DNA of 64,000 nucleotides from Methanocalculus natronophilus (lineage in GTDB: Archaea > Halobacteriota > Methanomicrobia > Methanomicrobiales > Methanocorpusculaceae): positions 1-64,000 of the forward strand of contig NZ_JBCEXH010000008.1 of NCBI RefSeq assembly GCF_038751955.1. The letters are read 5' to 3'. Made by a program: the position numbers and the translations under genes. Within the stretch, counting starts at the first letter, position 1. The number at the start of each line of letters is the position of its first letter. Shown in pieces: positions 31,520 through 40,297 of the stretch. The notes beneath the pieces were generated by a model. It was given only the letters and a program-made list of their open reading frames with translations, was not told where the DNA came from and did not search any database.

Positions 31520-34390
31520 ATGGCGCCGACGCCAATCCACCTTCTCATTGCACTGCTGGCACTCCTCTTCCTTGTGAGCCCGGCCGCTGCCATTCCTGAC
31601 ACCATCCATCTTCAGTCAGATACGGAGTGGCTCACCGCCGGGTCATCAGCATATGCAACCATAACCGCGACCATCAGCAACGGCACGACCCCACTCCCGG
31701 CAATCCCGGTCACCTTCTCTCTTGATGATCCCACAATGGGATCACTCAGTAGCGCCTCGACATCAACAACTGGTGAAGGAAAGGCAACTGTGAGGTTTAC
31801 CCCGGCAACCCAGAGCGGCGATGCCGTCATCAGGGTCTCTGCCGGATATGATTCCAAAGAGTCCGCAATACTCCAGAAGATCGATCATGCCGAACCTGCA
31901 AACATAACCGATCCCGTGTACCAGCACGAGGCGACTGTCGGGTCTCGTGCTGAGATCTCAGTCGGGATGAGGGATGCCTATGGAAACCCTGTTGATAACC
32001 GGCGGGAAGCAGCCCTTGGCATCTCTCCGGAGAGTATAGCTCTCACGGTCACCTCTGCCGGAGGAAACGCAGGCTTCCTGACACCTGAGGGCAACAAGAC
32101 CACAATTACTGTCCCTGTGGATGACAGGGGCGCCATCACCGCCTCCCTCCAGCTCGATACCTACCCGGGCGATCACATCATCAGTATCGACCCCTCGCCG
32201 GACGGTATCGCAACCAGGTGGATCACCATCAATGCGATTGCAGATGCCGTGCCGCATGATCTGAGCTATGTCGTCACTCCGGTCACCGGAACAGCCCCTG
32301 CAGACGGGGAGGCCATGTTTACCATCCGCTACTACTTCACAGATGAATATGGGAATCCTGCTGGTGCGCAGGCGATCAACTACCGTATCACAGGACCTGC
32401 AGAGACACAGGAAGACACCTTCACGACAAGCTCCCTTGGTGAGATTGTACTGACCTATGGCCCCGTACTGACAACAGGGACATATGAGATCACCTGCTCT
32501 CCGGCAGACAACCCGGCTCTCCAAAAGACCCTCCCCCTGACATTCCATAGCAGTGAACCTGTTGCTATGCTTCTCACCGCAAACCCGCTGATGATTGCAA
32601 GCCGTGACGCAAAACCTGATACCAGGGCAGATATCAGGGCAAAAGTCATCGATAAACGCGGCCATCCGGTTGCTGGTGAAGAGGTGACTTTTACAGTACT
32701 CCCGGGTGCAACAGAAGGCTATCTCCATGATCCAAAACTGCATGTTGTCAATGCAGTAACAAACGAATACGGCTTTGCAACCGCCAGCTTCTATCCAGGT
32801 GACTTCACACAGGACTGGACATGTGACTCCTTCAACCCAAGAGCTGCCGGAGAAGCGACCATCCATGCAGAATGGATGGACAAGGAGGACGAGGTCACCA
32901 TAATCTGGAAGAACTATCCTTTCCTCAGTATCAGCACCATGATCGAACCCGAGACGGTCAGGGTTAATGAAACCATTAACGTGACGATGCAGATATCCGG
33001 AGATGGCTGGTTTCTCCAGTCCGGGAGCAGGGTGGATGTTGTCCAGGTAATCGACTCTTCAGGCAGCATGAGTGCGGGTGACATCGAGCCTAATCGGTTG
33101 GATGCAGCACAATCGGTCACACATGAGTTTGCTGACATGATCATGGACCTTGCCGGGAACCGTGTTGCGATCTTTTCATCTGCCAACACCATCACCCTCG
33201 AACAGGAACTCACCTATGAGAAGACCCTGATAAACCAGGCAATTGAGCGCTTATCATCAGGTGGGAGCGGCAGACTCATGCGGGCAGGCTGCTACCAGGC
33301 AATTCATCATCTGGAGTTCACCAGCCGCCCGGGCGTGGTGAAAGCAGTCATCCTGCTTGGAGATATGAACAGCTGGAATCCCAAAGGCAACCATCTTGGA
33401 GATGAATATCACTTTGATAACCTCCTCGCCTATGCAAACGAGCATGATGTCCGGATCTATACGGTTATGCTCGCAGCAGACGAATCATCAAATACCTACC
33501 AGTTGTCTGCGAACTTCTCTGAAGCAACCGGTGGCAGGGCATTTAACGCCCAGAACTACATGGATCTGATGGAAGCCTACCTGCAGATAACAGAGGAGCT
33601 CTCCTATGAAGCAGGGGTCAACACGACAATCGATCTCTCCCATGAAAACGTGAAGGTCAACCAGGCAGACCACCCGGGAGGCGATGTCTTTGAATATGTC
33701 CCGCAGACTGTGATTACAAACCGGTACTACAATGGAACTGTCACCAGAACAGAGCTTGATCAGACCGATGACTGGAGGGGAATCACTCCTCCGGCAGCGA
33801 ATGCCCCTGCACACAGCCTCTTCTTTGATATCGGAACAATTTATCTTGGTCAGGTTTGGGAGGCACGGTATCAGCTCAGGGTCTTACAGGAGGGAACAAT
33901 TGAGCTATTCGATCCACGGTCAGCGGTCTCATTTGAAGATGCGCCTGAAGATGGCCAGCAGCTCCAGACGGTCTATATCAATGCACTTCCCGGGATAGAG
34001 GAGATTAAACTGCAGGATCTCCCGCTTAGGATCAACAACCTCAGATCAACAGCAAGCCAGTCGGTAACCGATATTCTTCCGATAACCTGGGAGATCACCT
34101 ATGGTGGTGACGATGATGCCACCCAGCATATCCAGTATACAATCGTTGATCCGATCGTATTTCAGAGATTCAACTATGCCGGCCCATATGACTGGCAGAC
34201 GGCAACAACCCTCACGACACCGGGTCCGGTAGTTGGGCAGAAGATGACCCGCGATATCAATGTGGCTGATCGCCACGGCGTCTGCCTCATCCGCATCCGG
34301 GCATCAGCACCCGGCACACCTGACGATACCGCATGGATGCACGTTCCGGTCGGCCGGGCATCAGCTGAGTCATTCATTAAAATTGAATAA
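31520..34390 (+). CDS. Large secreted protein with invasin-like Ig domains and a von Willebrand A domain
   Basis: A 956-residue extracellular protein. After a signal peptide (LLIALLALLFLVSPAAA) come three or four bacterial Ig-like (Big_1, invasin type) domains with motifs such as DAYGNPVDNRREA, DEYGNPAGAQ and DKRGHPVAGEEVTFTV. A von Willebrand A domain follows with a complete MIDAS start DSSGSMS near residue 512, then a beta-rich C-terminus. No membrane anchor or PGF-CTERM is seen. It probably binds metal-dependently to partners at the surface, perhaps with the neighbouring repeat protein. Confidence 0.85.
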   Translation: MAPTPIHLLIALLALLFLVSPAAAIPDTIHLQSDTEWLTAGSSAYATITATISNGTTPLPAIPVTFSLDDPTMGSLSSASTSTTGEGKATVRFTPATQSGDAVIRVSAGYDSKESAILQKIDHAEPANITDPVYQHEATVGSRAEISVGMRDAYGNPVDNRREAALGISPESIALTVTSAGGNAGFLTPEGNKTTITVPVDDRGAITASLQLDTYPGDHIISIDPSPDGIATRWITINAIADAVPHDLSYVVTPVTGTAPADGEAMFTIRYYFTDEYGNPAGAQAINYRITGPAETQEDTFTTSSLGEIVLTYGPVLTTGTYEITCSPADNPALQKTLPLTFHSSEPVAMLLTANPLMIASRDAKPDTRADIRAKVIDKRGHPVAGEEVTFTVLPGATEGYLHDPKLHVVNAVTNEYGFATASFYPGDFTQDWTCDSFNPRAAGEATIHAEWMDKEDEVTIIWKNYPFLSISTMIEPETVRVNETINVTMQISGDGWFLQSGSRVDVVQVIDSSGSMSAGDIEPNRLDAAQSVTHEFADMIMDLAGNRVAIFSSANTITLEQELTYEKTLINQAIERLSSGGSGRLMRAGCYQAIHHLEFTSRPGVVKAVILLGDMNSWNPKGNHLGDEYHFDNLLAYANEHDVRIYTVMLAADESSNTYQLSANFSEATGGRAFNAQNYMDLMEAYLQITEELSYEAGVNTTIDLSHENVKVNQADHPGGDVFEYVPQTVITNRYYNGTVTRTELDQTDDWRGITPPAANAPAHSLFFDIGTIYLGQVWEARYQLRVLQEGTIELFDPRSAVSFEDAPEDGQQLQTVYINALPGIEEIKLQDLPLRINNLRSTASQSVTDILPITWEITYGGDDDATQHIQYTIVDPIVFQRFNYAGPYDWQTATTLTTPGPVVGQKMTRDINVADRHGVCLIRIRASAPGTPDDTAWMHVPVGRASAESFIKIE

Positions 34391-35033: not shown

Positions 35034-35979
35034 TCCCGGAACCGAGCGGAAATGCCTGGAAATTCTTCGTATACTGGGCGAATCGCGTGAACCGATGGGG
35101 GCAAAACACCTCTCAGAGCGGATGGCAGAACAGGGCTTTATCCTCTCTGACCGTGCTGTCCAGTATTATCTCCATCACCTGGATGAGGTTGGTTTTACCA
35201 AAAAGATTGGAAACCGCGGACGGGTGCTCACAAAACTCGGCATGGCAGAGAGTGAAAGCGCACTTGTTGGAGACCGGATAGGTTTTGTCATCGCCAAACT
35301 TGAGCGTTTGGCCTTCAGGAGCACATTCAACCCCGACACCTGTACAGGCGATGTCGCGTATAACCTCTCCTTTGTCAGAAACGACGACCTGGACAGGGTT
35401 CGCCAGTCTTTTGACGAGGTCATCTCATCAAAACTCGGCTTCTTCAACACCTATGCCGAATCCGAAAATGACCCCCGTATCCCAAAAGACCATACCGGCA
35501 TCATCACGGTCTGCAGCATCACAATGGATGGAATCTTCCAGCATCATGGCATACCTGTCAGGATGGCATACGGCGGGTGTCTCAATCATACAGGCGGGAC
35601 CCCAGCCCGCTTTCTCCACCTGATCGGCTACCGGGGCACAACCCTTGATCCTCTTCAGCTGTTCATATCTGCCGGCATGCCCTCAATAGGCGAGTACATG
35701 CAGACGAAAAACGGTGTCTGCCTTGCCAATATCAGGAACATCCCCCAAGGCGCGGTTCAGTCAGCTGAGGAGATCATGGCTTCCATGCGGAAGAACGGCT
35801 TCCACCTGCCAGCTGCAGTCGGATCAGGGATACTTGGCATTCCCCATGAACCCTACCAGTCGTCTATCATCATCTACAGCGGCATGAACCTGGTCGGCCG
35901 GGCATATGAATCAGGTATCAGGATCAAAACCGAGATAGGCGCAGGAACACTGCCGATAGCACGTATTCTGTCTGGCTAG
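35020..35979 (+). CDS. NrpR-family transcriptional regulator
   Basis: Euryarchaeal nitrogen-response repressor family that senses 2-oxoglutarate. A winged-helix domain (residues 1-80: CLEILRILGESREPMGAKHLSERM, SDRAVQYYLHHLDEVGFTKK) precedes one NrpR regulatory domain (DUF128) with SFVRNDDLDRV, GIITVCSITMDG and GRAYESGIRIKTEIGAGTLPI. With a single regulatory domain it resembles NrpRI of species with split proteins. The ATG at 35020 fits the family; the open frame begins at 34957. Targets such as glnA or nif genes are not in the window. Confidence 0.88.
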   Translation: MRESDPGTERKCLEILRILGESREPMGAKHLSERMAEQGFILSDRAVQYYLHHLDEVGFTKKIGNRGRVLTKLGMAESESALVGDRIGFVIAKLERLAFRSTFNPDTCTGDVAYNLSFVRNDDLDRVRQSFDEVISSKLGFFNTYAESENDPRIPKDHTGIITVCSITMDGIFQHHGIPVRMAYGGCLNHTGGTPARFLHLIGYRGTTLDPLQLFISAGMPSIGEYMQTKNGVCLANIRNIPQGAVQSAEEIMASMRKNGFHLPAAVGSGILGIPHEPYQSSIIIYSGMNLVGRAYESGIRIKTEIGAGTLPIARILSG

Positions 35980-38033
35980 ATCCAGGTGATCCCGCCATCG
36001 CCCTCTTCCGGCTCGTTCTCTGATCCGGATCGCTCACCGATAACAACAAACTTGGATCTGCCTTTTATCCCATCCCGGGGGCGTGGATGGCTGTGAGGTG
36101 TCCGATCCCCTCCCACACTGTCCTTTGGGGTGGGGTGGCCGCCAATACGCAGGTGTGCACCCCCTCCTCCTGCGTATGCAGAATCACTGGGTCGTTTCGC
36201 AGAATCTGGTGCAACACCCTTTCCCATCAGGACATCGTCACGCGGACGGGATGCTCTTCTATGGATAGTGATGGCTTCCCCATCAAAAGCCCGATCATCG
36301 GGGCGGGAGAAGTGTGACTTCAGGGCTATTGCCTTTGCCTCAAACGTATCATCCCTTGCCCTGATGTTCTCGGGGAGTGAGAACGGCCCATCAGTTGTGT
36401 CAGGGGGCATCCTGCCCTTCTCAACAGGTGTCTGCCCAATACGGATCGCCTGTGGATCCATTGTCCCGTCACGTGGCCGGATCCCGCCACCCACAGCTGT
36501 CTGGCGTGATATATCTGCAACTTCTGTTGCCTGCCTGCCGGGAAGTGTTATCTTTCTGGCGGGAGCACTATCCTCTCTTTCGGGAAGTGAAACCTCACCA
36601 CCCGCAAAAACACCATCGTCTTCCACGGGATGATAGACCGGCGAACCTTCATCTGCCACCGGGGTCGGGGCTACACCAGTATCCTGCACAAACTCAACCC
36701 GATCGTCCTGATCTTCTGCTTCCCAGACATTCTCCTGCTGCAGGAGCGCAGCCCGCTCAGCCCGTTCTCTTGCTTTCCGCTCCAGCTCTTCCCTCTTCTG
36801 GAGTATCTCCTCCTTCTCCCGCCTGCTCTCCTCATGGCGGATCATCTCTTCCTCCATCTCTTCGAGATGGGCTTGCCGGATCTCTCTGAGCTCGTTGATA
36901 CGGGGAATATTTTTGATCCCTGCCAGCACGATGATCACGCCGACATATTTCGTGTTTATCACGGGATAATCGCCAGCCCGCATCTCAAGGCCGGTGATAT
37001 TTCTGTCGATCCATTTCCGCACGTTCTGGAATCCCTTCATCGAGAGCTCATCTGTTGGCCCTGCAATCAGGACAAGTGCCTTCTCAGCGCTCGTCAGATC
37101 GCATGGAACCGAGATCTCCTGGTATATCGCCCGTTTGGCAAGTTCAACAACCCGTGATGCACGCATGTGCCCTTCTTCAAAAGATGAATGATTTCTCCGG
37201 AATTTATTGAGAAAACAAAACTTTGGCCTTGAGATGATCTCTGTCGAATACCCGATGGCAACCATCCCCATTCCGGCGATGGTATTGATCACCTCACCCG
37301 CATCAAGAACGACTTCAGCAACCGGTTTTCCCCCCTCAACAAACTCACCAGCCCTGAGAAGAAGCCCGAAGCGCCGGGCAAGCCTCTCATTTAAAAGCCG
37401 GTTTGCTTCGCGGGGGTTCAATGAAGCCGTATCCGGATTTTGTTCCAGAACTGCCTCATCATCCTGTTCCGGATCATCTGTCTCATCATCAAAACCGTCA
37501 TTCTGAATCCGCTCAAGCCTGAGCATCTCGGTCGCAATCTTCCGGTACCAGGTCTCGTTATCAAAGAGAATACAGCCGTCGACAACCGGCTCGATCACAT
37601 CTATCTGATCAGCTGCCCGTGCCGAGATCCGTTTCCCTTCATTTCTGAGGGGAAGGGTGAGGATAGTAATCACCGGCTCATAGAATGAATCACGTATCTT
37701 TTGGACAATGAGCGGAACCGCGTCAGCATGCCGTCCTCCAAGCCCGGTACAGATAATTACAGCATCAATCTCGATGGTTGTGCTCTGCTGAATATGCTGG
37801 ATCATCTCGGCAATATCCAGGATCTCGCCATCAGCTGCCATGTCATCTTCATGAAAAGAAGGAAGGACGATCCGCTCGGAATGGGGAATATGCCGGAGCT
37901 CCCTGATACTTGATATATCAGTATCTATTGCTAATGTCCAGACACTATGCGTTCCGCTTCGTGTGTCATGTTCATGGAGGGTGTCGGCGATCCGCGATCC
38001 TGCTCCGCCAAGTCCGATGATGAGCGCTTTCAT
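35976..38033 (-). CDS. Tubulin/FtsZ-superfamily protein (CetZ-like) with coiled coil and repeat tail
   Basis: The N-terminal region has a tubulin/FtsZ-type GTPase core. From the TTG at 38042, the T1 loop GLGGAGSR is at residues 10-17 and a degenerate T4 loop TGLGGRHADAVP is at 99-110. The CetZ-like TLPLRNEGKRISARAADQ is at 129-146, followed by GCILFDNETW, and the T7-like LDAGEVINTI is at 246-255. Residues 385-437 are a charged coiled coil. From about 487 to 668 the tail has degenerate ~19-residue repeats (RPRDD..F..KAI). The strong ATG is 38033; a TTG at 38042 is an alternative. It ends four bases into the NrpR gene. A cell-shape or motility role is only inferred. Confidence 0.78.
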   Translation of the reverse strand: MKALIIGLGGAGSRIADTLHEHDTRSGTHSVWTLAIDTDISSIRELRHIPHSERIVLPSFHEDDMAADGEILDIAEMIQHIQQSTTIEIDAVIICTGLGGRHADAVPLIVQKIRDSFYEPVITILTLPLRNEGKRISARAADQIDVIEPVVDGCILFDNETWYRKIATEMLRLERIQNDGFDDETDDPEQDDEAVLEQNPDTASLNPREANRLLNERLARRFGLLLRAGEFVEGGKPVAEVVLDAGEVINTIAGMGMVAIGYSTEIISRPKFCFLNKFRRNHSSFEEGHMRASRVVELAKRAIYQEISVPCDLTSAEKALVLIAGPTDELSMKGFQNVRKWIDRNITGLEMRAGDYPVINTKYVGVIIVLAGIKNIPRINELREIRQAHLEEMEEEMIRHEESRREKEEILQKREELERKARERAERAALLQQENVWEAEDQDDRVEFVQDTGVAPTPVADEGSPVYHPVEDDGVFAGGEVSLPEREDSAPARKITLPGRQATEVADISRQTAVGGGIRPRDGTMDPQAIRIGQTPVEKGRMPPDTTDGPFSLPENIRARDDTFEAKAIALKSHFSRPDDRAFDGEAITIHRRASRPRDDVLMGKGVAPDSAKRPSDSAYAGGGGAHLRIGGHPTPKDSVGGDRTPHSHPRPRDGIKGRSKFVVIGERSGSENEPEEGDGGITWI

Positions 38034-38231
38034 ACGGGACAATCCACCTCTGCAGAAAAAACCCGGATACTATTCTGCATGGTACAAATAGTATTATCCC
38101 CAGAACATAAAGCCTTTCAGTTCTTCCTTCCTGATCCTTTAGCCAGATTTTCAGTTTCTTCCTCATTTCCAGGAACTTATTTTCTACCTGGAACCACTGC
38201 CCCAAAAGTAAATGATAATGATTATAAGCAT

Positions 38232-39352: not shown

Positions 39353-40297
39353 GTGTCCCTCTTCTCCTGTATTGAGATCCACTCCGCACCCTCGCCCATC
39401 CAGTACCGGAGGGAGTATGCAACCGGTCTCTGCTGCCGCATAAGCCCGTATAGGGGTGTCAGGGGGATAAACGCACACATTGACTCACTCGCATACCAGT
39501 ATGAGGCAGCTGGCTGCCCTTTCTGCAGATCACAGATCTTTGAGGCAACAGAACCCTTTTCAGATGGAGAGTGGATAACCCGGGGAGAGAGCGTCACGCT
39601 CCCAAACCGTTACCCGTATGCCGACCTGCATACCGTCACTATCATCACCGAAGCGCATATGGCGCCATCATTTTCTGCCCGCCAGCTCTCAGATGCTCTT
39701 GCTGGTTCAGCCACATCTCTTGTAGACTATCCGGGCTACCCATCCATCAACTGGAACTTCCTACCCTCTTCCGGCGCAAGCCTGCTCCACCCGCATCTCC
39801 AGGGTATTGCTGATCCAATGCCCACCGCACTCTGCATGCGCTATCTTGAGGCATCTGCACACACAGCAGACGGGGATTACTGGGAACTCTTCTGTGAAGA
39901 AGAACTCCATGGAAGCAGGCATCTCTTTGGGGAGTTGCTTGGAGAAGAACCAGTCTGGTTTGCCTCACCTGTGCCAATTGGCGAATGTGAGATCCGGGGC
40001 ATCCTCCCGGTCAGGACAATCGCAGAGTTTCTCTCGATAACAGACAGGTTTGCAACTGATCTCGAAAGAATCATCAGCCTGTACCGGGGGCTTGGATTCT
40101 ATGCCCTGAATATGGGTATCTTCTTCCAGAAGACCGGATCGTCTGGTGAGAGAGGGATGCATGCATTCTCTTCGATAATTGCACGAATCAATCCAAACCC
40201 GGATGCAATCAGTGACTCGGCTTTTATGGAGCGTATATCGGGAGAACCAATTGTCATGACACTCCCAGAAGATATTCCCGGATATCTTAATCCCTGA
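39353..40297 (+). CDS. GalT-like hexose-1-phosphate uridylyltransferase/HIT-superfamily protein
   Basis: A 314-residue protein like galactose-1-phosphate uridylyltransferase. The zinc-binding CPFC is at 55-58; LPNRYPYADLHTVTIITEAH resembles the FENRYP.F..HEVIVE..H segment; and the nucleophile motif HPH is at 146-148 in LLHPHLQG. It starts with GTG at 39353. The exact sugar or nucleotide is unknown, and GalE/GalK genes are not adjacent. An AP4A-phosphorylase-type role is a second option. Confidence 0.75.
   Translation: MSLFSCIEIHSAPSPIQYRREYATGLCCRISPYRGVRGINAHIDSLAYQYEAAGCPFCRSQIFEATEPFSDGEWITRGESVTLPNRYPYADLHTVTIITEAHMAPSFSARQLSDALAGSATSLVDYPGYPSINWNFLPSSGASLLHPHLQGIADPMPTALCMRYLEASAHTADGDYWELFCEEELHGSRHLFGELLGEEPVWFASPVPIGECEIRGILPVRTIAEFLSITDRFATDLERIISLYRGLGFYALNMGIFFQKTGSSGERGMHAFSSIIARINPNPDAISDSAFMERISGEPIVMTLPEDIPGYLNP

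Follow-up and report, generated by a model that had tools for sequence, protein, structure and literature searches.

The Methanomicrobiales carry an order-wide family of CetZ-allied paralogues of the tubulin superfamily that have lost the T4 signature of the nucleotide site, retain the T7 catalytic loop and, in the tailed members, continue into a long disordered tail bearing diverged repeats. The Methanocalculus natronophilus member is encoded in the window, by which we mean the whole stretch of 64,000 nucleotides analyzed here (contig NZ_JBCEXH010000008.1, positions 1 to 64,000). The open reading frame that contains it spans positions 35976-38042 on the minus strand. An initial sequence-only reading had counted residues from the TTG at 38042; we prefer the ATG at 38033, because the Methanocalculus relatives begin at the same Met and because a GAGGTG (38050-38045) precedes this ATG by 11 nt but stands just 2 nt from the TTG. 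Residues are numbered from the ATG (adding 3 gives the TTG numbering), and the features of the gene are as follows.

35976..38033, minus strand: whole gene, 685 aa, with ATG at 38033-38031 and stop at 35978-35976 (ORF list and the start of relatives)
37539..38033, minus strand: N-terminal GTPase-type domain, residues about 1-165 (Pfam Tubulin, match at 7-167, E=2.5e-11; AlphaFold)
37722..37745, minus strand: altered T4 loop GLGGRHAD, residues 97-104, with the GGGTG[ST]G signature lost
36879..37403, minus strand: CetZ_C (PF21011), residues about 211-385 (Pfam, match at 214-388, E=5.8e-47)
37281..37310, minus strand: retained T7 catalytic loop VLDAGEVINT, residues 242-251, including Glu247 (motif alignments)
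36717..36905, minus strand: long charged helix after the core, residues 377-439 (AlphaFold, pLDDT mostly >90)
35979..36716, minus strand: disordered tail, residues 440-685 (pLDDT <50 almost throughout 450-685)
36498..36545, minus strand: conserved tail motif LPGRQxxEVADISRQT, residues 497-512 (alignments, by eye)
36039..36482, minus strand: array of seven repeat units of the form x[RK]P[KRSND][DE]-x2-hydrophobic/G..., residues 518-665 (cross-genus profile)
35979..36008, minus strand: acidic C-terminal peptide EEGDGGITWI, residues 676-685, a Trp near the C-terminus being frequent in tailed orthologues

The CetZ-like tubulin-superfamily core that had been proposed from the sequence was borne out by both domain and structure comparisons. 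Pfam detects Tubulin and CetZ_C, and no other family, in 41/41 orthologues, and an AlphaFold model computed with 41 orthologues as input has a tubulin fold; the tubulin GTPase-domain fold and the PF00091 match together place the protein in the superfamily. H. volcanii CetZ1 is the best PDB sequence match (4b46, 8.4e-49), and the modeled core is nearest to 4B46, 4B45 and 3ZID (TMt 0.79-0.86). The pLDDT of the core exceeds 80 in most blocks and is low in a charged loop near residue 65, in an insert at ~180-200 and at residues 228-241. With CetZ1 (4B46) and CetZ2 (4B45) the family shares the fold, CetZ_C, the T6 motif FDN..W, the H7 Asn and the T7 pattern D..E..NT. Assignment to FtsZ was rejected, as the protein scores 44.8 bits against TIGR00065, for which the equivalog cut-off is 295 bits, and its T7 loop reads VLDAGE, not N[LI]D[FY]AD.

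The protein was at first described as a singular one, which proved too narrow. Matches at E<=1e-30 were found in 196/199 genomes, a few of which match by canonical CetZ alone, and all 38 of the 38 Methanomicrobiales genera searched are represented. Outside the order, matches are exclusively canonical CetZ-like (about 1e-43 or weaker). Syntenic orthologues located between mer and nrpR occur throughout the Methanomicrobiales, forming a family larger than the single-protein description; the closest named ones, from Methanocalculus species, are 57-63% identical over the full length. Nearly all genomes searched also have a second match, to canonical CetZ, and the genome of the window encodes five tubulin-domain proteins: two FtsZ, two canonical CetZ and the tailed relative. 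The two canonical CetZ proteins (L003 and L004, contigs C7 and C9) are 386 aa each and highly alike.

In an IQ-TREE phylogeny, 46 orthologues and 20 canonical CetZ fall on separate sides with solid but not decisive support (89/88 and 94/89); the branches of a few orthologues are long. The split is present in 92-94% of bootstrap trees, and quick trees give the same split. The orthologues thus branch beside canonical CetZ, and they have neither its T4 GGGTGSG nor its T1 G[FY]GQAG; they are a CetZ-allied paralogue and should not be filed as canonical CetZ. A 3ZID-like lineage was also considered as the parent, but a quick tree placed the Methanosarcinales-type proteins resembling 3ZID elsewhere.

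The gene order hth-mtd-galT-mer / tailed-relative gene / nrpR-dcd is retained at most loci, including those of tailless and very divergent orthologues, and is lost in Methanocorpusculum and Methanomicrobium. We therefore regard these genes as true orthologues at one vertically inherited locus. An operon partner was sought at the locus and none was found, the gene being divergent from mer and convergent with nrpR; its neighbors are methanogenesis and nucleotide genes held by synteny and not functional partners. One neighbor (39353-40297, plus strand), conserved at 68 of the 99 mer-containing loci, matches nothing in Pfam or NCBIfam at E<=0.1 and by eye resembles galactose-1-phosphate uridylyltransferase-like proteins. 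Further along, 31520-34390 (plus strand) encodes a secreted-looking protein of 956 aa with three Big_1 domains and a vWA domain, and a similar sequence was found downstream of dcd in 43/99 orthologous loci. In a Methanocalculus-like MAG, the orthologue (L012, G003:C13, and L065) is split into two overlapping frames, reflecting a frameshift or an assembly error.

The altered T4 loop noticed in the window sequence is indeed present, as GLGGRHAD at residues 97-104, and characterizes the whole family. GGGTG[ST]G occurs in 0/116 orthologue sequences in which T4 was located, a set containing duplicates shared by two genome collections, whereas the canonical signature is present in 100% of the 20 CetZ compared. 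When 46 diverse orthologues are aligned with 20 CetZ and 15 FtsZ, GGGTG proves invariant in CetZ and FtsZ; past GLGG, the orthologues have nothing in common with it, and the second half of their T4 has no consensus. In the AlphaFold model, helix H4 begins at residue 102, inside the expected position of the loop. The other motifs are nearly invariant in the 46 orthologues: T1 GxGGAG, the T5 Glu, the T6 Asn, the H7 Asn and the T7 Asp/Glu. T1 is of the GxGGAG type (GLGGAG) where CetZ has G[FY]GQAG (Gln in 100%). The T7 motif was found in 120/120 retrieved orthologues, although it was itself part of the retrieval filter; in the independent alignment of 46 orthologues, the T7 Glu is present in 98%.

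Constraint on the two halves of the core is reversed relative to canonical relatives. In 98.6% of orthologue pairs it is the C-terminal half, not the GTPase half, that shows the higher conservation, vs 5% of pairs for CetZ and 18% for FtsZ, percentages that are descriptive and carry no P values, since the pairs are non-independent. At a C-terminal identity of 0.5-0.6, identity in the GTPase half is 42% in orthologues compared to 63% in CetZ. The C-terminal half of the orthologues shows 36% resemblance to CetZ and 17% to FtsZ. Selection has shifted away from the handling of nucleotide and toward the half in which T7 lies.

Behind the core, the segment proposed as a 50-residue coiled coil appears in the AlphaFold model as a single helix of 63 residues. 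Of four Methanocalculus tails examined, three have the long helix; in other genera it is shorter. No Pfam domain was detected in the tail across 41 orthologues, and a search for the same tail elsewhere in the genome of the window returned the self-match only. By eye, LPGRQxxEVADISRQT is akin to LPGRPARTVADMTRMT and LPKKPDAIILDMTRQT of other genera, giving a common motif LPxR..(V/I/L)D(I/M)(S/T)RQT. A Trp lies within the last six residues in 56/69 tailed orthologues. Substitutions in the Methanocalculus tails are biased to third positions, as in the core, which fits a translated and constrained protein.

For the repeats, we used a profile of 16 columns derived from 225 units of other genera, with a threshold of >=4 bits. 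It finds seven ~19-residue units in the window's protein, at residues 518, 557, 576, 595, 613, 634 and 650, compared to a mean of 0.14 and a maximum of 2 in 2000 shuffles of this tail; profile columns beyond the RP[KR][DE] anchor are also above chance at the anchors. Nine units had been proposed. Seven of these stand (521, 560, 579, 598, 616, 637 and 653 in TTG numbering), and those at 487 and 544 are unsupported by the profile. That a profile built from other genera recovers the seven also upholds the conservation of the tail repeats in homologues. No DNA-level tandem repeat was found, so the repeat is a diverged one at the protein level. Motifs of the form x[RK]P[KRSNDT][DE] are more numerous than in shuffles in most of the tailed orthologues, with spacing peaks at 19 and 15: the originally noted spacing of ~19 residues holds for Methanocalculus and Methanoculleus but not for Methanocorpusculum, where it is 15, nor for the lineages that have no tail.

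A disordered, repeat-bearing tail is present in most lineages. Tails differ in Methanoregula and are absent in Methanolinea and several other lineages; the tail is therefore not needed for the core function. Proteins of ~380-440 aa without a long tail include L131, L135, L136, L137, L174-L177 and L180, as well as L231-L235, in which T1 is GLGTAG. The tailless members among L131-L180 are in the conserved gene order where examined, and most cluster together in the tree. At the other extreme, two Methanomicrobium proteins (L121 and L123) reach 1110-1134 aa, with a long Q/N/P-rich, prion-like stretch preceding the repeats and a tail longer than the core.

Several known systems share parts of this architecture. 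Canonical CetZ has GGGTGSG, T1 GFGQAGGK, a short tail ending near ..DPLFE and a better conserved GTPase half, whereas the tailed family lacks GGGTGSG, has T1 GLGGAGxR and a long repeat tail, forms a separate clade and conserves its C-terminal half better. FtsZ and TubZ cores have a working T4 loop, unlike the tailed family, and no comparable tandem array of motifs is known to us from FtsZ or TubZ tails. FtsZ, with its linker and C-terminal peptide, and TubZ, with its flexible tail (PMC5322520), are alike in combining a tubulin-fold core, a disordered tail and a short conserved C-terminal peptide. FtsZ-like 1 (FtsZl1) is likewise a divergent superfamily member beside a normal FtsZ; its T6-H7 region is unrecognizable and it occurs in vWA operons (Makarova and Koonin, 2010; PMC2875224). 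We rejected it as a match, as the tailed family has intact T6, H7 and T7, has lost T4 and has no operon. The vWA gene in the window was likewise discounted as an FtsZl1-like link: nrpR and dcd separate it from the tailed-relative gene, it is encoded on the opposite strand, and T6 and H7 of the family are intact.

Brown and Duggin (2023) reported two CetZs per Methanomicrobiales genome, one of them deep-branching and diverse, and grouped a 'Non-Halobacteria-like' deep Methanomicrobiales set with Methanosarcinales CetZ (PMC9856176). This deep-branching group probably includes members of the tailed family; the main text makes no mention of T4 loss, a long tail or repeats. No comparable protein was found in the other openly searchable literature. 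The claim that no homologue with this architecture had been described holds for the searchable literature, although members are probably already present in the CetZ tree of Brown and Duggin (PMC9856176).

Our preferred interpretation, which we hold tentatively and with somewhat less than even confidence, is that these proteins are order-specific paralogues of CetZ with a defective nucleotide site, which attach to CetZ filaments or cap them and present a multivalent tail. Active sites in the tubulin superfamily are formed jointly by adjacent subunits, one giving its nucleotide face and the other its T7 loop. Because its T7 is intact and its T4 degraded, the protein would be suited to sit on CetZ and not to receive a subunit. 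Without T4, it would run no GTP-driven polymer of its own; its T7/C-terminal face would bind a canonical CetZ subunit on the GTP side and complete the active site there, and its degraded nucleotide face would take up the next subunit poorly. It may occupy filament ends or act as an occasional non-cycling subunit, and its tail, with a row of RP[KR][DE] motifs and an acidic, Trp-containing C-terminus, would engage a partner, or more CetZ subunits, at several sites simultaneously. The state of T4 suggests the loss of GTP cycling, similarity to and co-occurrence with CetZ suggest the interaction, and the repeats suggest recruitment. The reversed constraint, the closer resemblance of the C-terminal half to CetZ than to FtsZ and the single vertically inherited locus also favor this reading, as does the finding that one substitution in the T4 region, G105S, takes the GTPase of E. 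coli FtsZ from 7 to 0.47 GTP/FtsZ/min (PMC4603965). As a counterpoint, T1, T5, T6 and H7 are kept, so GDP or GTP might still be bound, and neither the gene context nor the genome-wide search with the tail pointed to a partner for it. A filament cap with a built-in tail, whose repeats of 15-19 residues would run back along the CetZ filament, one per subunit, seems to us highly improbable; the subunit rise is about 43 Å, which an extended stretch of 15-19 residues could span. Tau on the microtubule likewise has repeats, and the proposed cap would differ by joining repeats and cap in one polypeptide.

The proteins could instead bind nucleotide in a rebuilt pocket and form slow or static filaments of their own, linked by the tail to a partner or the membrane in the manner of FtsZ, which we consider unlikely, though worth weighing seriously. 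The near-invariance of T1 GLGGAG, the T5 Glu, T6 Asn, H7 Asn and T7 Glu is consistent with this, as is the FtsZ-like layout of a bulky linker and conserved C-terminal peptide, and FtsZ substituted in the T4 region retains some activity (PMC4603965). However, the change in T4 goes beyond mere substitution, to a second half without consensus, the whole GTPase half is under relaxed constraint, and no membrane-targeting segment was identified; membrane binding by the tail has no particular support in this analysis. It is more doubtful still that the family is a non-polymerizing, CetZ-independent scaffold, the fold dimerizing or anchoring while the tail recruits envelope, S-layer or metabolic proteins. 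The degraded nucleotide site and the Methanomicrobium tail that exceeds its core (in proteins of 1110-1134 aa) would suit a scaffold, but the most conserved part is the T7/C-terminal half, which in the superfamily meets the next subunit, and tailless orthologues retain the same core and locus. Finally, a CetZ copy in decay, weakly constrained and carrying a functionless low-complexity tail, could account for the relaxed GTPase half, the absence of the tail in some lineages and the gene in two frames in one MAG (G003), yet we give it almost no credence given the order-wide presence and the gene order held in most genomes, the invariant T7 and C-terminal residues, the repeat profile recovered across genera, and the third-position-biased substitutions in tail and core, an order-wide purifying selection that contradicts decay.

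To our knowledge, lineage-wide, fixed pseudo-GTPase members of the tubulin superfamily have hardly been described in prokaryotes. The combination of an intact T7 and a dead T4, in cells that also contain a normal CetZ, makes it testable whether dedicated non-polymerizing paralogues regulate archaeal CetZ filaments. The repeat tail, through its motif peptides and the DDGITWI C-terminus, provides a concrete handle for identifying a first binding partner for the tail of a cytoskeletal protein in archaea.
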